21,874 nt of DNA from a virus. Of the stretch, positions 2 to 20,949 are shown piece after piece; the stretch's first letter is position 1; the number at the start of each line of letters is the position of its first letter. The notes below the pieces were generated by a model, which made no database searches, was not told the DNA's origin, and saw only the letters and a program-made list of their open reading frames with translations. Made by a program: the position numbers and the translations under genes. Location of the stretch: IMG/VR virus record IMGVR_UViG_3300020159_001855, positions 1 to 21,874 of that record, one strand, 5' to 3'.

Positions 2-520
2 GTGGGCAATAAACTAGGAACCCCTACTATTAAAATTATTATTGATGATTATGTTGTACTCTACGAAGGTGCCGCTATTGAATTATTTGAAAGAGAGTTT
101 GATTTAAACTTGGGCGAGCACGAATTGAAGATAGTTCACTACGGTAAAACAGATGAAGATCACATATATAATCCAGACGGCTCCATTGCAGTAGATAAGT
201 ACGTTTATATAAAAAGAATTACTATCGATAAAGTTACTTTATTAGATAAAGAATTACAAAGTGGACAATTTTGGCCTGTATATAGTAAATCGTATATTGA
301 TACTATAGTTGCAAAAAATCAAGAATTGCCTAGATTTATAAGTCCAAACTTATATTTAGGACATAATGGTATTTGGAAATACACTTTTTTTAACCCGTTC
401 GTAGAGTGGGTTATTGAAAATAGAAAACTAGGACCTAATTTAGAAAATACTATTTTTAAAACCAGCAATAATATATTAAAAGAAGCCAAAGACTTTTTCT
501 TAAATGCGCCAGATCTTTAA
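2..520 (+). CDS. Beta-rich protein of unknown function, possibly 5' truncated
   Basis: I do not recognise a named family. The frame opens with GTG at base 2, so the true start may lie upstream of the window. The 172 residues are rich in alternating hydrophobic and charged residues, as in a beta-sandwich: early strands around residues 8-50 (KIIIDDYVVLY, HELKIVHYGKT) and a Trp/Phe-rich C-terminal half (HNGIWKYTFFNPFVEWVI). The HxLKIV..KTD pattern recalls hypothetical proteins I associate with marine T4-like phages, where a carbohydrate-binding-like fold seems plausible; that is inference. Its stop overlaps the start of the radical SAM gene by 17 bases in another frame, so the two are probably translationally coupled. 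Confidence 0.6.
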   Translation: MGNKLGTPTIKIIIDDYVVLYEGAAIELFEREFDLNLGEHELKIVHYGKTDEDHIYNPDGSIAVDKYVYIKRITIDKVTLLDKELQSGQFWPVYSKSYIDTIVAKNQELPRFISPNLYLGHNGIWKYTFFNPFVEWVIENRKLGPNLENTIFKTSNNILKEAKDFFLNAPDL

Positions 521-1616
521 TTTAGACACCATCGACGAATATCAAATTGAGATAACTAGCTACTGTAATGCTGCTTGTCCACAATGCCCACGAAATAATT
601 TAGGAACAGGCATTAATCCTTATATGCCTTTAGTGCATTTAGATCGTAATATTATTAACGATTCATTTACTACAGAACTATGCACTAATCTTAGACAGGT
701 GTTCTTTTGCGGAAGTTATGGGGATCCAATTATGCATCCCGAGTTTTTAGATATTCTCAGTGATTTTAGACGCAAAAATCCAACACTGTGGCTGTATATA
801 CATACCAACGGCGGAGTACACGATATAAAATATTGGCAAGAAGTTGCTAAGATTTTCAACGGGTACGGTCAAATTGATTTCGGTATAGATGGACTAGAAG
901 ATACTTTACATTTGTACCGGCGCAATGTAAAATACAGCAAAGTTATAGAAAATGCAACAGCATTTATCTCTGCAGGAGGAAAGGCTCAATGGAACTTTAT
1001 TGTTTTCAAACACAATGAACATCAAGTTGAAATGGTTCGACAGTTAGGCAAAGAACTAGGATTTTTTAATGTGCTTGTTCGTAAAACTGGTCGTTTCTTA
1101 AATTTTCAAAATTTAACTGAAATGGCTGCATGGCCTATTGCAAAATCAGACTTTGTCATTGAACCACCGAGTAACGATGAATACAGAAATAAAAGTATGA
1201 TGTTATTGCCTACCTTAAAGAAGCAATACACAGATATAGAAGAATATTTCAAAACTACCCCCATTGAATGTGATGCATTATTAGGTAAAAAAGTTGCAAT
1301 TAATGCAGAAGGATTAGTTCTTCCTTGCAATTTCTTTAATCATAATTTATACGATGCCAGATTTAGGGATAATAGCTTGCCCGGAGCAAACTCATTAAGC
1401 ACTGTTGACGGTAAAAATCAAGTCAGAACATTCTTAGAATCGTATGGATTAGAAAATTTATCCATTAAACATAGGTCATTGACAGAAATTTTTGATAATG
1501 TTTTTTGGACAGATTTAATTAATTCGTTTACTAATAGTAACAGATTATTTGAGTGTGCAATGACTTGCGGAACAAAATTTACAAAAGTATGGGATCAAGG
1601 AGGATCCAAAAAATGA
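504..1616 (+). CDS. Radical SAM enzyme with SPASM-like C-terminal cysteines
   Basis: A 370-residue radical SAM protein. The N-terminal CX3CX2C motif (C21, C25, C28 in CNAACPQCP) would bind the [4Fe-4S] cluster that cleaves S-adenosylmethionine. A glycine-rich motif CGSYGDP (69-75) and LYIHTNGG (97-104) fit the radical SAM barrel. Further cysteines C256, C275, C351 and C355, with the pattern KVAINAEGLVLPC, look like a SPASM or twitch auxiliary-cluster region, which is typical of enzymes acting on peptides or other macromolecules. The substrate is unknown. The start overlaps the upstream gene, and the last four bases, ATGA, overlap the dehydrogenase start, so the three genes probably form one operon. 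Such enzymes are uncommon among virion genes; the pair may modify a phage or host molecule, which is inference. Confidence 0.88.
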   Translation: MRQIFNLDTIDEYQIEITSYCNAACPQCPRNNLGTGINPYMPLVHLDRNIINDSFTTELCTNLRQVFFCGSYGDPIMHPEFLDILSDFRRKNPTLWLYIHTNGGVHDIKYWQEVAKIFNGYGQIDFGIDGLEDTLHLYRRNVKYSKVIENATAFISAGGKAQWNFIVFKHNEHQVEMVRQLGKELGFFNVLVRKTGRFLNFQNLTEMAAWPIAKSDFVIEPPSNDEYRNKSMMLLPTLKKQYTDIEEYFKTTPIECDALLGKKVAINAEGLVLPCNFFNHNLYDARFRDNSLPGANSLSTVDGKNQVRTFLESYGLENLSIKHRSLTEIFDNVFWTDLINSFTNSNRLFECAMTCGTKFTKVWDQGGSKK

Positions 1617-2197
1617 AAGTTTTAGTTACAGGTGGTAATAGAGGGCTTGGGTTAGAGCTGGTCAAAAACTTAAATGGCACTAGCATCAGTAGAGAAGATG
1701 GCATAGATATTACCCGAGATCATAAACAAATTGCTGAAGCCAGCTTGAATTATGATGTGTTTATCAATAATGCCTTCGATGGACCCCCACAAGAGGACTG
1801 GGCAAACTTTGCACAGACAAATGTCTATATGGCAGTATACGATACATGGTCTGCTGCTAGAAAAAATGGTCATATATTTAATATTGGCAGTGTAGGTATG
1901 AAGACTGTTGTTGCTCCTGAACCCCGATTTGAAACATATCGTGTAAGTAAAGCAGCGTTAGAACATGCTAGCAAGCAAGGCACTCAAGCATTTAAACAAA
2001 ACAAAGTGCCTTTTAAAACAACATTAATTACGTTAGATAGACTAGATACGGAGTTATCCAGGAGTCGATCAAATTGGACTGGCAACGGAATCGGTTTAAC
2101 TGACGTATATAATTTTATCAATTATGGATTAAACGTAAACTCAAATACTTGCATTGAAGAAATAACATTTTATTGTAACTTAGACTATTTGGCATAA
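1613..2197 (+). CDS. Short-chain dehydrogenase/reductase (SDR)
   Basis: A 194-residue SDR. From the chosen ATG at 1613 it shows the Rossmann TGGNRGLG (residues 6-13, NAD(P) binding), NNA (52-54), a serine in NIGSVG (S93) and the catalytic YRVSK (Y109, K113). The family oxidises or reduces alcohols and ketones with NAD(P). The frame stays open upstream to 1553, but 1613 is preferred: the conserved SDR fold begins there, AAGGAGG stands just upstream at about 1598-1604, and the ATG shares ATGA with the stop of the radical SAM gene. It is shorter than the usual 240-260 residues, the shortfall being in the C-terminal substrate-binding part, so the substrate is not predictable. Tight coupling to the radical SAM gene suggests a shared pathway. 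Confidence 0.87.
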   Translation: MKVLVTGGNRGLGLELVKNLNGTSISREDGIDITRDHKQIAEASLNYDVFINNAFDGPPQEDWANFAQTNVYMAVYDTWSAARKNGHIFNIGSVGMKTVVAPEPRFETYRVSKAALEHASKQGTQAFKQNKVPFKTTLITLDRLDTELSRSRSNWTGNGIGLTDVYNFINYGLNVNSNTCIEEITFYCNLDYLA

Positions 2198-2234: not shown

Positions 2235-2669
2235 ATGACTTGGTTATTCGAAGGCTCAGAGGTTGAGAATTTACCCGACAGTTGTGTTGGATTTGTATAT
2301 CTTATCACAAACAAAATATCAAACAAAAAATACATTGGCAAAAAACTGGCAAAATTCAGTAAAACTACTCAAAGAACAGTAAAATTAAAAAACGGCACTA
2401 AAAAGAAAAAGAAAATTCGCTCAAAAGTCGATTCAGACTGGAGAGATTATTATGGCTCAAGTCCTGAGTTACAAACAGATGTACAAACATTAGGCTCAGA
2501 CAATTTTACCAGAGAAATACTTTACTATTGTAATTCCAAAGCAATTTGTAGTTATATTGAAGCAAGAGAACAATTTACCAGGCGTGTATTAGAATCAGAC
2601 GAATATTACAACGGCATAATCAATTGTCGTATCCATGGCTCCCATATAAAAAATAAATTAAGCATTTAA
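2235..2669 (+). CDS. GIY-YIG nuclease-domain protein, phage Seg-like
   Basis: A 144-residue protein with a GIY-YIG nuclease core: GFVYLI (19-24) and KYIGKK (32-37) form the two-strand signature, and a downstream helix SYIEAREQF (about 110-118) carries the expected catalytic glutamate. A Lys-rich insertion (KLKNGTKKKKKIRSK) and SDWRDYYGSS follow. Family members cut or nick DNA; T4 Seg proteins and I-TevI are homing endonucleases. Close relatives occur, to my recollection, as free-standing genes in T4-like phages of aquatic bacteria. The ATG at 2235 is chosen because the motif-bearing frame begins there with MTWLFEG; no strong ribosome-binding site is visible. There is no added DNA-binding repeat domain, so homing activity is uncertain. 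It ends directly before the structured RNA region, which makes a functional link worth testing. Confidence 0.8.
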   Translation: MTWLFEGSEVENLPDSCVGFVYLITNKISNKKYIGKKLAKFSKTTQRTVKLKNGTKKKKKIRSKVDSDWRDYYGSSPELQTDVQTLGSDNFTREILYYCNSKAICSYIEAREQFTRRVLESDEYYNGIINCRIHGSHIKNKLSI

Positions 2670-2694
2670 GACTCGCACAAGTCAATATCATGTG

Positions 2695-2972
2695 CCCTAG
2701 ACCTGGATCTCGGATCGCAGGGATGGAAGACTCACCGTGCTAGTGAGCACTCAACCACTACCCGAAAGGATGACGATTGCCAATGCCGCAATTTGGTTGT
2801 TTGAAAAGGATTAACAGGCTAAAAAAGACGTAGCAGTGATGCTACACGGTTTATATGTATGTTAGCGTATAGATATAAACCTGCCGTTGTGATAAGAACT
2901 GAGCTCGAGGTACCGGACAACCGCCTCTGTAACTGCTTTAACGCTAATGACTGTGCTACTCGGATGAAGCAT
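2695..2972 (+). ncRNA. Structured non-coding RNA, candidate HEARO/omega-RNA-like
   Basis: No convincing gene lies here, yet the plus strand folds into consecutive stems. These are CCTGGATC/GATCgCAGG (2702-2721); CTCAC/GTGAG (2731-2747); CAACCA/TGGTTG (2752-2757 with 2794-2799), enclosing a GAAA-tetraloop hairpin (2762-2769) and ATTGC/GCAAT (2776-2792). Next comes AACaGGC/GCCGTT (2813-2819 with 2883-2888), enclosing GTAGC/GCTAC (2830-2845) and a 9-bp stem GGTTTATAT/ATATAAACC (2848-2881). Then GAGG-UAC-CGG/CCG-CCTC with an ACAA loop (2907-2927), and TGCTT/AAGCA (2934-2938 with 2967-2971). The base composition is less AT-rich than the neighbours. Segments such as ACCGCCTCTGT, CGCTAATGACT and GGAAGACTCACC resemble, from memory only, the HEARO (IscB omega-RNA) family. 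Exact ends and the family name are unproven; the existence of a structured RNA is the firmer claim. Confidence 0.55.
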
Positions 2973-2979
2973 TATCATT

Positions 2980-2998
2980 TTTGCCCTGTGCGGGCAAA
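2980..2998 (+). other. GC-rich hairpin 3' of the structured RNA
   Basis: A 7-bp perfect stem TTTGCCC/GGGCAAA closes a TGTGC loop. No T-run follows, so it is not a classical terminator on the plus strand. On the minus strand it would be followed by AATGATAATG, also without a T-run. It may be a further domain of the RNA or a 3' protective hairpin. Confidence 0.55.
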
Positions 2999-3029
2999 GT
3001 GTGACTGATTAATCTGGATGAAACTTATA

Positions 3030-3350: not shown

Positions 3351-4193
3351 TTATGCGAAAAAACTTGCTTGCTCGAAAACTAATGGGGTTTCATAGGGTT
3401 TGTTACAGTCTTCGTGTTCACACGTTATAGGAACTTTTTTAAGTGGGCTTTGTTCTCCAAAGCTTTCTAACTTTGATTTAACTGAGTCCCACACTGTTTT
3501 ATTGCAATTTTGAAAGAATTCATGAATCTGATCAGGATCTTCTACTACAACACCTTCTTCTGTTTTAACTCCAGCTACACTTTTACTGATTTGTTCTACT
3601 GTAAGAGTTAATAATCTTTGAAAAACAACATTGAATTTTGCTAATTTTTCTTCCTCACTCAACGAGTCATCTCCCACCACAGATAATAATCGTTGATGCT
3701 CGTAGTTTTCTAAACTGGCTTTGTTAAATTGTTGGTAATCATGAGGCTTGATATAAATTTCCAGCCCTTCTACTTTTATAGTAGAATCGAAATCAGGACA
3801 GGTTATCTGCGACGACAATGCGCCTAGATCCGCAGTGTTTTCATTTTTTCTTTGACAATGGGGACAAACACTGACAAACTCCATGCCTGGACCATATGTT
3901 GCATGACGTATGGCTATCAGTACCGCATCTAAGTCGACAGCGGGCATTTTCCATGCATCTTTGATAGCAGGTACACAACTTTGTATAACGTCCACAGTGC
4001 TTTGTCCATTTAACAATGCATCGGGAGTTTTTAATATTAGCTCATCTTTGGCTGTCATTGGGTAAACAGGTAGTTCCCCGGTAACTGGTAGTTCTAAACT
4101 GCCCGGTGGGTACCAACGTCCATGACTGGGTAATTTAAGATATAATTGAGGCTGTCTAAAATGTTTAGCCAAAGGATTAGCACTATTAACCAT
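3351..4193 (-). CDS. 26: Baseplate hub protein, T4 gp26-like
   Basis: A 280-residue protein of the T4 baseplate family related to gp26, a component of the central baseplate hub at the tail tip. The N-terminus carries the recognisable run LYLKLPSHGRWYPPGS, GELPVYPMTAKDELIL and KTPDALLNGQ (about 17-65), followed by IQSCVPAIKD and a paired CPHC (about 109-112). A second pair CEHEDC lies near the C-terminus (about 258-263). Together these could bind one metal ion, as in related proteins of marine phages; metal binding is inference. It is somewhat longer than T4 gp26 (about 208 residues). It reads leftward, opposite to the rest of the window, as the first gene of a two-gene unit. The ATG at 4191-4193 begins directly after the divergent intergenic region. 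Confidence 0.83.
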   Translation of the reverse strand: MVNSANPLAKHFRQPQLYLKLPSHGRWYPPGSLELPVTGELPVYPMTAKDELILKTPDALLNGQSTVDVIQSCVPAIKDAWKMPAVDLDAVLIAIRHATYGPGMEFVSVCPHCQRKNENTADLGALSSQITCPDFDSTIKVEGLEIYIKPHDYQQFNKASLENYEHQRLLSVVGDDSLSEEEKLAKFNVVFQRLLTLTVEQISKSVAGVKTEEGVVVEDPDQIHEFFQNCNKTVWDSVKSKLESFGEQSPLKKVPITCEHEDCNKPYETPLVFEQASFFA

Positions 4194-15888: not shown

Positions 15889-18800
15889 ATGTCTAAAAAG
15901 ATAAGTGACAACATCATAAGCGGACGAGTTCCGAAAACACCGAGTGCTAATGCTGATCCAGGTAGATATACATACTTAAATCTGCAAAACGCAGAACCAG
16001 ATTTGGGTTTACCAGCGGGCAATGCTTATGTATTAACAGGTAATGTTGATGGCGCACGTATTTGGGCTAACATAGCAGATCTTATCAGTGAAGGCGGGGG
16101 GTTGTCTGGTAACATTAATGTTAACGGTGGCGGATCATTTGGTGGAAATGTAGAAGCCAACGGCAGTGGTCTATTTGGTGGAAATGTACAAGCCAACGGC
16201 AGTGGTCTATTTGGCGGTAACGTTAGTGCCAATGGTTCTGGATCATTTGGCGGCAATCTTAATGTTAATGGTTCTGGATCATTTGGCGGAAATATCAGTG
16301 CCAATGGAGACGGAAACTTCGGTGGAAATATTAATGCCAATGGAGATGCTAGGATTGGCGGAAACATCAGCGCCAACGGAGACGGAGTATTTGGCGGAAA
16401 TGTTACAGCCAATGGAGACGGAAACTTTGGCGGAAATATTAATGCCAATGGCGATGGAAATTTTGGTGGTAATGTAAACGCTAATGGCGATGGAAATTTT
16501 GGTGGTAATGTAAACGCCAATGGCGATGGAAATTTCGGCGGTAATTTAAATGTAAACGGTAGTGCATTTTTTGGTAATGATGTTATTGTTACTGGTAACT
16601 TAACTGCCAACGGATTAACTGTAAATTACAGTGGTACTTTTGGTACTACCTTATGGGCTGGCGGCGGAATACAAAATACAGTACTAGGAAATCTACAACC
16701 AATTCCAGGTGCAAATGTAAATGTAGCAAATATAGGTGGTATTCAATATACTGGTAATACTATTTCAAGTTTAAACACCACTGCTAATATTAATTTAGCA
16801 CCCGGAGTTTCAAAATTAGTTAATATTCAAACAGTGGGGGCATTAGGTCTTCCTGCAGGTAGTACAGGTGATAGATCAAGTATCACAACACCTGGTGCAG
16901 TAAGGTATAACAGCGATACAACTGTAGTTGAATATTATAATGGCACTCAATGGATTCCGGTATCCGGGCTAGTAACAAGTCAAAATATACAAGGTAATGG
17001 TGCTGCTTCTTATCCTTTAGTTGCACAAACTACAACCACAGCTGGAGTTTTGGCTATACAAGGCGGAATACGATTCTTAGTGCCAAATGTTGATTATACT
17101 ATTACTACAAATGTAATTACTTTTGCATCTAACTTATATGTGTCGGATTCGAACGTCGATATTAGATTTTTGAGCGCAGGGCAGACTACTGTGATTGCCA
17201 GCGCGGCAGGTGCAAACACTCAAGTAATGTTTAACGATGCTGGTGTTTTGGGAGGATCTACTGGATTAACCTTTCAAAAACCTGCAAACTTATTAACAGT
17301 CAGCGGGAATGTTGACGCAAGTTATTTCTTAGGAAACGGTGCTTTACTGTCTGGATTGCCAGGCGGAACCAGTTTAATTAACGGTAACAGTAATGTTGTT
17401 GTTTACAATAATGGTAATGTAACAACTAGTATTCGAGGAACATCTAATGTTGTTGTAGTCAGTGCAAATGGAATTTTTGCCACTGATTATTTTTATTCCA
17501 ATGGAGTTAGATCAGTTGGTCCACAAGGTCCCAGAGGACCACAAGGGCCACAAGGACCTTCTGGAGTTTCTGGTCCACAAGGAGTTCAAGGCGCACAAGG
17601 ACCACGCGGACCTTCGGGTGTTCAAGGACCACAAGGACCAATCGGTCCACAAGGCGCACAAGGACCTTCTGGAGTTCAAGGACCACAGGGTGTTGAAGGC
17701 GCACAAGGACCACAAGGACCACAAGGACCAATTGGTCCACAAGGTCCTAGAGGACCACAAGGAATAGGAACACAAGGTCCACAAGGTCCACAAGGAGTTG
17801 TAGGAACACAGGGACCGCAGGGACCACAAGGCATAGGAGTGCAAGGACCACAAGGTCCGACTGGTACTCAAGGCCCTAGGGGTCTTCAAGGACCACAAGG
17901 ACCAACAGGAGAAACTGGAGTTGGCACACAAGGACCACAGGGACCACAAGGTCCACAAGGCCCACAAGGGCCAATTGGTAACTTAGGGGCGCAGGGACCA
18001 CAAGGACCTTCAGGGCCACAAGGACCTGGCGGCACTGGGCCACAAGGTCCACAAGGTCCACGCGGACCACAAGGTCCATCTGGGCCAGATGGTGCTGCTA
18101 GTAGTGTTCCAGGACCACAAGGCGCACAAGGGCCACAAGGACCACAAGGAGTAGGCGCTCAAGGTCCACAAGGCCCACAAGGGGTCCAAGGCGCACAAGG
18201 ACCGCAAGGACCGCAAGGGCCGCAAGGGCCGCAAGGACCAAGCGGAGTGCAAGGTCCACAAGGATTAGCAGGAGACAAATATACAACTACCAGTAGTACC
18301 AGTCTTACAATTGGCGCTGGCAGTAAAACTTTAACTGTTGAAACAGGATTAAGTCTTGCAGTTGGACAGACCGTTAATATTGCCTACGATGGCAGTAATT
18401 TTATGCAAGGTACAGTTACTGCATATAATTCAGGCACTGGGTCACTGACTGTAAATGTAACATCTACAACAGGATCTGGCACGTATGCAGTTTGGACTAT
18501 ATCATTAACTGGTGCGCCAGGTCCGTCAGGTCCAACAGGACCACAGGGATCACAAGGACCACAGGGATCACAAGGACCACAAGGACCGCAAGGCATACAA
18601 GGTCCACAAGGACCACAAGGACCGCAGGGACCACAAGGACCGCAAGGCGCTCAAGGACCACAGGGAGTTGGCGCTCAAGGACCACAAGGATCACAAGGAC
18701 CACAGGGTCCACAAGGACCACAGGGTCCACAAGGACCACAAGGACCACAAGGACCACAGGGAACAGGCGGTCAAACTGGATCTGGGTATGCAAATTTAAC

Positions 18801-20949
18801 TTCTACTAGTTCGGTAACGGTAGGCACAGGAACCAAAACTTTTACTACTTCGGCGGCAAGCACCACAGTAGCATTCGGTGTTGGTCAAAGAATTCGAGCA
18901 AGTTATACAACAACACCAACCATTTACATGGAAGGTATAATAACTTCTTTTAGTGGTACTACCTTATCTATTACTTCTGACTATATTGCAGGAGCAGGTA
19001 CATACAATTCTTGGGCATTTGCTGTTACGGGAGAAGTGGGGTCGCAGGGACCACAGGGACCAACAGGTCCACAAGGTGCAAGAGGACCACAGGGACCACA
19101 GGGACCACAGGGACCACAGGGACCAAGTGGTCCGCAAGGTGTTGGTACACAAGGTCCACAGGGTCCAAGCGGCGATAGATATCAAACTACTAGTAGTTCA
19201 ACGTTATCTATATCTACTGGATCTAAAACACTAACTATAGGAACAAGTTTAGCGTATTCTCCAGGTCAACCTATTATTATCGCTACTGATAGTACCAATT
19301 TAATGAGAGGTTCTGTTACTTCTTATAATAGTGGAACAGGTTCTTTAGTAGCAGATATCACTGAAACTGGTGGATCAGGTACATATGCTAGTTGGTCTGT
19401 AAATATTAATGGTGCACCTGGACCGCAAGGTCCACAAGGAATTCAAGGTCCACGTGGACCGCAAGGACCACAAGGTCCAATTGGAAACACAGGAGTTCAA
19501 GGCCCACAGGGACCACGGGGACCGGAAGGAATTCAGGGACCAACTGGGCCTGGAGACAAATATAATACCACAAGCTCAACGTCATTGGCAATTGGAACAG
19601 GGTCTAAGACTTTAACAGTTCAAACAGGTCTGGCATATTCAACAGGTCAGAATGTATTAATAAGTTTTGATAGTTCTAATTATATGATTGGCACTGTAAC
19701 TAGTTATACTACCGGAACTGGTGCATTAGTAGTTAATGTAGATTCTGCATTTGGATCAGGTACTTATAGTTCTTGGTCTGTTAACTTAAATGGTGCTGTC
19801 GGCGCGTCAGGGCCATCCGGCCCGCAGGGACCACGTGGTCCACAAGGCGCACAAGGCCCGCAAGGACCACAAGGTTCACAAGGTCCACAAGGTCCACAAG
19901 GTCCAAGTGGCCCACAGGGTGTTCAAGGGCCACAAGGAACAGGACCACAAGGACCCCGAGGACCAGAAGGCGCTCAAGGCCCACAAGGACCAAGCGGTCC
20001 ACCTAGCACTACTGGAGGACCACAAGGACCACAAGGTCCCCGAGGACCAGAAGGCGTTCAAGGACCACAAGGACCACAAGGTCTTGGAGTCCAAGGACCA
20101 CAGGGACCACAGGGACCACAAGGACCCCGAGGACCAGAAGGCGTTCAAGGACCACAAGGAACAGGACCACAAGGACCCCGAGGACCAGAAGGCGTTCAAG
20201 GACCACAAGGACCACGTGGTCCAGATGGTGCTTCTAGTAGTGTTCCAGGTCCACAAGGACCGCAAGGACCACAAGGAACAGGACCACAAGGACCACGAGG
20301 TCCACAGGGACCACAAGGACCACAAGGACCACAAGGACCACAAGGTCCAGCTGGTCCGTCTACGACCATCAATGCAGCAGATACTGCCACATCAAGCACT
20401 TTTTATCCAGTGTTTGTTGCAGCCGTAGGATCTAATCAAACAGCATCTGCAGATGATCCAGGATTAAGATATATACCATCAGTGGGAAATCTTACTGTAG
20501 TTGGAGGTAGTAGTGGTAACGTTATCAGTGGTAGATTTGTAGGAACTGCAACTTCTGCACTATACGCTGACCTTGCAGAAATATACAAAGCTGATGCAAA
20601 ATATCAAACTGGAACAGTAATGGTGTTTGATGGAGAGCAAGAAGTTACTATTAGCAATAACTACATGAGTACAAAAGTTGCTGGTGTGATTTCAGAAAAA
20701 CCTGCTTATTTGATGAATTCAAATTTACAGTCTGAATTTACAGCAATAATTGCACTTCAAGGACGAGTTCCAGCTAAGGTTTTAGGCCCAGTTGGCAAAG
20801 GCGATATGTTAGTCACTGCACCAGACGGTCATGTAACTGCATGTAGTTCTCCTATTGTTGGTAGTGTGGTGGGCAAATCATTGGAAAACTTTACAGCAAC
20901 CGACGATCTTCCTGCTACTATACTTGAAATAGTTGTTGGCAGAACATAA
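15889..20949 (+). CDS. Giant collagen-like fibre protein
   Basis: A 1686-residue modular fibre. Residues 1-72 ([13 protein letters not shown]) probably attach it to the virion. Residues 73-228 are thirteen 12-residue repeats of GGN-x-x-ANG-x-G-x-F. Residues 230-543 hold beta-rich fibre modules, including [22 protein letters not shown]. Residues 544-1491 alternate five Gly-x-y collagen blocks, mostly GPQ (starting near 544, 875, 1048, 1175, 1302), with four homologous 79-81-residue inserts of the type [17 protein letters not shown]...[13 protein letters not shown]...[11 protein letters not shown]. The C-terminal domain (about 1492-1686) includes [25 protein letters not shown] and resembles fibre-tip domains of aquatic phages. 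Gly-x-y blocks imply a trimer, giving a very long thin fibre for host contact. Proline hydroxylation is not expected; Gln often fills the y place. Start ATG lies three bases after the previous stop. Confidence 0.9.
16105..16572 (+). repeat. Thirteen tandem 36-bp coding repeats
   Basis: Thirteen consecutive in-frame 36-bp units encode SGN/GGN-x-x-(A/V)NG-x-G-x-F. The later units (around 16393-16536) are nearly identical, with GCCAATGGCGATGGAAAT recurring, whereas the first and last units have drifted. They are coding repeats with no spacers. Confidence 0.95.
17518..20361 (+). repeat. Collagen-type Gly-x-y repeat blocks
   Basis: Five blocks of CCA-CAA-GGA-like 9-bp units (17518-18273, 18511-about 18786, 19030-19173, 19411-19554, 19792-20361) are separated by four homologous non-collagen inserts (about 18274-18510, 18787-19029, 19174-19410, 19555-19791). 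Synonymous choices vary (ggt/gga/ggc, cca/ccg/ccc), which lowers exact identity between neighbours. Confidence 0.93.

Follow-up and report, generated by a model that had tools for sequence, protein, structure and literature searches.

A translationally coupled or fused radical SAM–dehydrogenase pair as exchangeable cargo of T4-like jumbo phages, with a possible role in glycan modification

In this work we have investigated a pair of enzyme genes near the start of a viral DNA of 21,874 bases, the entire IMG/VR record IMGVR_UViG_3300020159_001855, which we refer to as the window. The first gene (504..1616, + strand) encodes a radical S-adenosylmethionine (rSAM) enzyme of 370 aa with a predicted C-terminal four-cysteine twitch, and the second (1613..2197, + strand) encodes a short-chain dehydrogenase/reductase (SDR) of 194 aa. 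It is close to certain that the two proteins constitute one functional unit. Because of the families to which they belong, we consider it probable that this unit performs an oxidation and then a reduction on one substrate, and this substrate is rather likely to be a sugar or a glycan. The reading as a whole, in which a sugar or glycan undergoes a BtrN-like radical oxidation and is then reduced by the SDR, so that the host surface is changed, has in our judgement an even chance of being correct. The carriers of the pair are giant T4-like jumbo phages, mostly from freshwater, in which the pair occupies a slot of variable content.

The two genes share the stop/start overlap ATGA (1613..1616, + strand). 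We first searched IMG/VR with the rSAM protein and obtained 188 relatives, of which 80 were kept; with the window and its own copy (L001) they make up a set of 82 loci, some of them on near-identical contigs. Clustering of the neighbouring genes placed the SDR directly after the rSAM gene in all 82 records, and in every one the rSAM gene ended in ATGA. The second scan, with the SDR as the query, gave 346 relatives, and 78 of the 80 which were kept were new. Among these 78 loci, 51 had separate genes with the ATGA overlap, in 26 the two were fused into a single open reading frame (ORF; 518-595 aa), and L189 was cut by the end of its contig and could be placed in neither class. The SDR start at ATG 1613 is common to all relatives; the GTG at 1553 of the mechanically called ORF falls within the rSAM gene. 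At most fused junctions (...KVWDQTKM(T/N)KTF(L/F)ITGGNRGLG...) the C-terminus of the rSAM part meets the start of the SDR part almost without a linker. The fused forms account for 21 of 119 distinct rSAM sequences, and the tree requires two changes between the states. Gene fusion together with the overlap is strong evidence that the enzymes act sequentially on the same substrate, and a coupling of an rSAM gene to a reductase gene is also what a pairing of the AprD4/AprD3 type demands. Upstream, the ORF of a beta-rich protein overlaps the start of the rSAM gene by 17 nt (504-520). The initial annotation had described both overlaps and proposed that the three genes are made together, and our results bear this out: the arrangement is that of one translationally coupled unit, whose two enzymes cooperate and are fused in a third of the newly found loci. 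In eight locus pairs, dN/dS was 0.05-0.23 for both enzymes (the synonymous divergence, dS, could be computed in six pairs for rSAM and seven for SDR), which indicates that both are under purifying selection.

The rSAM protein matches PF04055 (E 2.7e-9) with 37.9 bits, above the curated cut-off of 29.5, and thus belongs to the superfamily. Its alignment (A1, 23 rows) has a mean column identity of 78%, and the CxxxCxxC motif for the SAM-binding [4Fe-4S] cluster (C21, C25, C28; 564..587, + strand) is invariant in all 23 rows. No N-terminal extension is visible in A1, a view of the alignment only, to which no model of a RiPP recognition element (RRE; RiPP, ribosomally synthesized and post-translationally modified peptide) was applied. 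Two further elements, C256-x13-G270-x4-C275 (1269..1328, + strand) and C351-x3-C355 (1554..1568, + strand), are likewise invariant in A1. The former fits CX9-15GX4C, the first part of the seven-cysteine SPASM motif, which is given as CX9-15GX4C-gap-CX2CX5CX3C-gap-C in the available part of PMC6231123. As only four C-terminal cysteines (C256, C275, C351 and C355) are invariant and not seven, we rejected an identity as a SPASM enzyme, and the "SPASM-like cysteines" of the initial annotation proved inexact. The first part of the motif and the CxxxC pair together could supply the four ligands of one auxiliary cluster and, judging by these residues, the C-terminus is a twitch domain like that of BtrN. 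The SDR matches PF00106 above its cut-off (E 2.6e-7) and is of the classical type, with the TGG..GLG cofactor motif, Ser93 and Tyr109-x3-Lys113; T6, G7, G8, G11, L12, G13, S93, Y109 and K113 are invariant in all 19 rows of its alignment (A2), which has a mean column identity of 74%.

When the fused protein was modelled (pLDDT 88.2), the SDR half aligned with many SDR structures at Z 16-17 (VIA-align), and a sequence search of the PDB with the SDR gave weak matches. The same kind of search found no relative of the rSAM protein. The top Foldseek match of the rSAM half was BlsE (E 9.9e-11, 16% identity), the rSAM decarboxylase of blasticidin S synthesis, which according to the accessible portion of the source acts on cytosylglucuronic acid. 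With VIA-align, BlsE (Z 18.6) is nearly tied with other rSAM folds, namely SuiB (19.8), MoaA (18.6), SkfB (18.5), anSME (17.8) and PqqE (17.0), so that the fold cannot settle the substrate. A role in a known cofactor pathway was rejected, since the NCBIfam matches lie far under their cut-offs, the best being a tungsten-cofactor maturase at 60.3 bits against 380.

Which known enzymes does the pair resemble? BtrN, a twitch rSAM dehydrogenase of butirosin synthesis, oxidises a cyclitol alcohol by two electrons, and it has been proposed that the substrate radical passes its electron to the fully ligated cluster (PMC9012708 and, within its available part, PMC6231123). The phage enzyme is like it in having CxxxCxxC and, as expected from the four cysteines, one auxiliary cluster; the likeness is one of motif, and BtrN was not among the structural matches listed for the rSAM half. 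In apramycin synthesis, the rSAM diol dehydratase AprD4 and the NADPH reductase AprD3 act successively on one sugar position, as stated in the accessible text of PMC5461906. The phage pair also joins an rSAM enzyme to a partner reductase, but it differs in being coupled by ATGA or fused, in its twitch motif and in the absence of a match to the AprD4 model (NF033070 is not among the 10 NCBIfam families which match the window rSAM at E <=0.01).

We hypothesize that the substrate of the rSAM enzyme is a hydroxylated sugar or cyclitol, which could be free, nucleotide-bound or part of a glycan, and that the 5'-deoxyadenosyl radical would remove the hydrogen from a carbinol carbon. The twitch cluster, fully ligated by cysteines, would then take up the second electron to give a ketone, as has been proposed for BtrN, and the SDR, at the same place or within the same chain, would reduce this ketone from the other face with NAD(P)H. 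The net outcome would be the inversion of one hydroxyl. We prefer such an epimerisation over a deoxygenation, in which the rSAM step would be a dehydration as in AprD4 and would lead to a deoxy-sugar. The protein encoded by the beta-rich gene might hold or select the glycan, and in those phages which have the gene for a cobalamin-type rSAM enzyme, the latter may add a methyl group. The product would most likely change the glycan of the host cell envelope during infection, which could act, for example, against superinfection. A host surface factor, one of the two targets suggested by the initial annotation, thereby stays the favoured one.

The substrate is thought to be a sugar or glycan because of four lines of evidence: the partner with a predicted carbohydrate-binding fold, the neighbours of the bacterial relatives, the companion enzymes and the lack of a precursor gene. 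The partner is the beta-rich protein (2..520, + strand), of which 172 aa are visible in the window, its 5' end being cut by the start of the contig. It has no match in Pfam, PHROG or NCBIfam. A full-length copy, 97% identical (L004:1637-2176, alignment A4), was modelled at pLDDT 88.8, and the model matched the CBM60 structures 2xfd and 2xhh with Z 10.9 and 10.4 (Foldseek E 5e-3 and 4e-3), the next match being at 6.1. The structure 2xfd is a vCBM60 with cellobiose; the root-mean-square deviation was 2.8 over 103 of 109 residues, at 10% identity. The modelled fold is accordingly a CBM60/CBM36 beta-sandwich. CBM60 modules are calcium-dependent carbohydrate binders; the partner resembles them in its predicted fold, yet it is a free phage protein. 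It is present in 48 of the 82 loci and is nearly always preceded by an rSAM protein of 500 residues, which itself occurs in 51. The NCBIfam families that match this rSAM protein best are of the cobalamin type, but none reaches its cut-off, and Pfam showed no B12-binding domain; the label "cobalamin-type" is therefore provisional. The initial annotation had recommended looking for a conserved third partner near homologues, and the beta protein, with its CBM60-like predicted fold, is such a partner.

In some loci (L244:5546-8080, L253, L260, L261 and L221) two aminotransferase-like proteins, with a profile match in the PDB to pyridoxal phosphate (PLP)-aminotransferase-like proteins (E 3.2e-5), flank a divergent beta protein and replace the rSAM–SDR pair in the slot. 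The beta protein is thus found in the company of different enzymes, as would be expected for a substrate-recognition part. In six others (L010, L011, L016, L031, L041 and L043) a trio of proteins of about 170, 175 and 253 aa (clusters 27, 28 and 24), without Pfam or NCBIfam match, replaces the cobalamin-type rSAM and beta genes.

A first scan of bacterial genomes with A1 found no relative. With a broader alignment (A10), a second scan gave 13 loci, in three of which (L350, L352 and L359) no rSAM gene was called. One match was named as a Bdellovibrionales metagenome-assembled genome, and we then searched its phylum, which we take to be Bdellovibrionota: 23 of 290 genomes had rSAM relatives (1e-20) and 10 of 290 had SDR relatives (1e-6). 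The closest bacterial pair (G304, locus L402) has 42% identity over 372 positions for rSAM and 48% over 192 for SDR, in the same order as in the phage, with a 106-residue ORF between the two genes. Glycosyltransferases were recognised by Pfam in five of the nine Bdellovibrionota regions inspected (L371, L402-L409), namely L371/L349, L406, L407, L408 and L409. The pair itself is carried by only two of these five. One is L371, where three rSAM–SDR pairs lie in a locus with a GT2 gene, and the other L406, where a divergent rSAM-to-SDR pair is accompanied by a polysaccharide flippase, an NDP-sugar epimerase and two GT4 genes; L408 also has a UDP-glucose/GDP-mannose dehydrogenase and PMT_2. Downstream of a Nitrospirales relative there are two sulfotransferases. 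Families common to the bacterial regions and the phage islands include N-twitch rSAM proteins, the cobalamin-type rSAM (408 bits in L405) and an aminotransferase-like protein, among others. PLSDB had matches on three Nocardia plasmids (30%) and a weak one in Kovacikia; the Nocardia neighbourhood, with two rSAM genes, methyltransferases and a phosphoketolase, matches no pathway that we could name. A consistent grouping of the homologues with a known pathway such as sugar synthesis, which the initial annotation had regarded as contrary to a macromolecular substrate, is thus seen in part: glycosyltransferases are present in five of nine regions, but the picture is not uniform.

Several observations weigh against a sugar-modifying unit. 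The rSAM gene lies directly upstream of the SDR gene on the same strand in only four of the 11 Bdellovibrionota SDR loci; in one more (L410) it is one ORF away, and the other six do not have this arrangement or are unreadable. No Pfam-recognised sugar gene was found among the tested neighbours of the closest pair, L402, nor among those of L403, and the rSAM–SDR pair of L404 stands, by eye, among housekeeping genes. In two phage locus pairs dS was far higher for SDR than for rSAM (0.56 against 0.15 and 1.12 against 0.15), so that the two genes are not always exchanged together. Two further points favour a different substrate. The near-tie of the rSAM half in VIA-align includes SuiB, SkfB and anSME, which act on peptides or proteins, and the Clostridial relative (L348) adjoins a SPASM rSAM enzyme, a context of the peptide type.

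Could the pair, then, modify a peptide or protein? The rSAM enzyme would in this case act on a protein of the virion or the host, perhaps the beta protein, by introducing a cross-link, ketone or epimer, and the SDR would finish the product. Besides the fold similarity (PqqE included) and the Clostridial context, the translational coupling of the beta protein to the rSAM gene speaks for this, but we think it unlikely. The cysteine motif is that of a twitch and not of SPASM, and the beta protein does not behave like an obligatory substrate: no copy of it was seen in 34 of the 82 loci (some of them cut short), its mean column identity is 44% against 78% for rSAM and 74% for SDR, and its modelled fold is CBM60-like. 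Neither is there room for a precursor, as the median distance to the upstream gene is -8 to +5 nt in every class and that between SDR and segE is 32 nt; the cassette has no gap able to hold a RiPP precursor gene, though one could lie farther away. The small precursor peptide gene for which the initial annotation advised a search thus has no place within the cassette, and the peptide or virion-protein substrate that it suggested finds no support in view of the glycosyltransferase neighbourhoods described above.

In relatives, the gene for a gp55-like sigma factor is followed by gp47 and gp46, then by the slot of variable content, and after this by a segE-like gene, a small gene and the genes for baseplate hub, portal and capsid. 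A gp46-like gene (PHROG 77) lies upstream of the cassette in 72 of the 82 loci, with the gp47-like recombination gene also upstream in relatives, and the segE-like gene is found in 81. In the window, the SegE-like GIY-YIG homing endonuclease (2235..2669, + strand; PF19835, E 6.6e-32) borders the slot outside the enzyme pair, and the T4-like baseplate hub protein (3351..4193, - strand; PF12322, E 1.9e-11) marks its far border; the hub, portal, protease and capsid genes lie downstream. The initial annotation had placed the enzymes within a virion gene cluster. This is correct for the downstream side only: there are no head or tail genes on both sides, since the upstream neighbours in relatives are the gp46-like and gp47-like recombination genes.

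We surveyed the slot in 80 loci anchored on the portal gene; 31 lacked the hub and 20 ended before gp46, which left 29 contigs spanning it. Fourteen of these had no rSAM gene in the slot, 11 had only another rSAM, three had rSAM and SDR (one of them, L299, as a divergent pair in reverse order) and one had the fusion. Cultured relatives have other slot genes in the same backbone: a P-loop ATPase in Vibrio phage 2.275.O, and a RusA resolvase and others in PA5oct. The variable contents of the slot imply that the rSAM–SDR pair is cargo, and we rejected a virion-protein maturase deduced from position alone, as almost half of the spanning contigs do without an rSAM gene there. Between L064 and L072, dS was 0.15-0.23 for the cobalamin-type rSAM, beta and rSAM genes, against 1.52 for gp46, 0.71 for segE and 1.12 for SDR, which suggests that the cassette was exchanged and that the breakpoint lies within or close to the SDR gene. 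It is plausible that the segE endonuclease drives such exchange. Alternative cargo includes an amidinotransferase (E 1.7e-10). Other phage proteins, labelled by eye as glycosyltransferase-like, SGNH-like, 2-oxoglutarate (2OG)-oxygenase-like and aminotransferase-like, were not recognised by Pfam or NCBIfam, and among the by-eye labels only aminotransferase and amidinotransferase are independently supported.

Since gp46 and gp47 adjoin the pair, and BlsE and MoaA, with substrates of the nucleoside type, are among the top structural matches, it might be asked whether the pair edits a nucleotide sugar or a base of DNA or RNA and so protects the genome. We regard this as improbable. Position says little when the slot is so often free of rSAM genes, no base-modification gene was seen beside the slot, and the bacterial relatives lie in chromosomal loci of the glycan type.

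The window is assigned to a T4-like phage by the Pfam matches of its portal, prohead protease, major capsid and T4-type baseplate proteins. Its capsid protein is closest to those of jumbo phages, with 70.6% identity to that of Vibrio phage 2.275.O (349 kb); Sinorhizobium phage Phosso (469 kb), the Erwinia/Serratia BF group (~357 kb) and the PA5oct group (287 kb) are other near relatives. In IMG/VR, relatives of the pair were found on contigs of up to 364 kb. Ten large contigs had 16, 13, 11, 11, 8, 7, 4, 4, 3 and 7 places matching PF04055; among cultured phages the numbers were 0 for Vibrio 2.275.O, 0 for PA5oct, 4 for Phosso, 2 for Mosig and 11 for Campylobacter CP220. In our collection of phage records the SDR, beta and cobalamin-type rSAM proteins had no match, and the window rSAM was matched in only four, at 25.4% identity or less. 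CP220 and CPt10 were called highly unusual for their 11 and 12 rSAM genes (available portion of PMC2853527). They resemble the present phages in this abundance, and the CP220 genes occur with an amidinotransferase and nucleotide-sugar transferases; they differ in that their rSAM has 24% identity to that of the window and no SDR match was found. In Mosig, a near rSAM is carried with an arnB-like aminotransferase and a carbamoyltransferase. Pelagimyophages, too, exchange rSAM cassettes in a hypervariable region with glycosyltransferases, which the authors link to a change of the host lipopolysaccharide, but they are another phage group with another slot, and the freshwater genomes of that study had no rSAM genes, as far as the accessible text of PMC7029224 states. 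That the pair instead makes a small metabolite or nucleotide analogue which aids replication or blocks host defence is the least probable alternative, for although a viperin-like rSAM (cluster 29; 39.6 bits to viperin, below the cut-off of 180) occupies the same slot in some loci and a phage contig may carry up to 16 rSAM genes, the window pair itself had no viperin match in NCBIfam and no defence context was found, without a PADLOC search.

Sequential action of an rSAM enzyme and a reductase on a sugar, rSAM-rich phages and phage rSAM cassettes near glycosyltransferases are already known; within the open-licence PMC papers, we found no report of an rSAM–SDR fusion or of this pair in phages. 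Perhaps, and here we are doubtful ourselves, the pair belongs to a swappable toolkit for radical glycan editing, mainly of freshwater T4-like jumbo phages and shared with the rSAM-rich surface-glycan loci of Bdellovibrionota, whose core would be a coupled or fused bifunctional radical epimerase guided by the CBM60-like protein and which would place unknown sugars onto the cell or the virions. If our main reading holds, the fused form would be a self-contained protein in which radical oxidation and the matching reduction could be assayed together, and new catalysts for the epimerisation or deoxygenation of sugars would be at hand. It would become possible to test what large phages use their many rSAM genes for, a question that dates from the Campylobacter phage genomes of 2010, and there would be a concrete link between phage cargo and the glycan loci of Bdellovibrionota. 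More soberly, the case shows that an rSAM gene beside capsid genes belongs to the replaceable cargo of the phage and is no virion gene.

Some observations were made beside the pair. The 364-kb contig (G001) has a second, different rSAM-to-SDR pair, again with an ATGA overlap (L119:9534-11350, - strand), and an island (L117) in which five N-twitch rSAM genes are accompanied by genes for a carbamoyltransferase and an AMP-binding enzyme. Such N-twitch genes, scoring above the cut-off of NF033640, form a run in seven of the ten large contigs (within L117 at G001:C1:318583-327009, and also in G305, G306, G307, G308, G310 and G311). In the window, a 1,686-aa ORF at 15889-20949 (+ strand) has long collagen-like GPQGPQGP repeats and is probably a virion fibre. 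Directly 3' of segE, and outside the cassette, lies a conserved structured non-coding RNA region (2670..3026, + strand). RF01718 (Polynucleobacter-1) spans only 2670-2802 of it, with 114.6 bits against a cut-off of 37, while the conservation extends to about 3026; this family reached the cut-off in five of ten other loci and had no match in the phage records. In the consensus structure (A12, 15 rows), 35 of 78 pairs had a compensatory change. One similarity group comprised 94 of 110 distinct 450-nt stretches following segE, and in a wider alignment this RNA seems to fall into more than one class of sequence.

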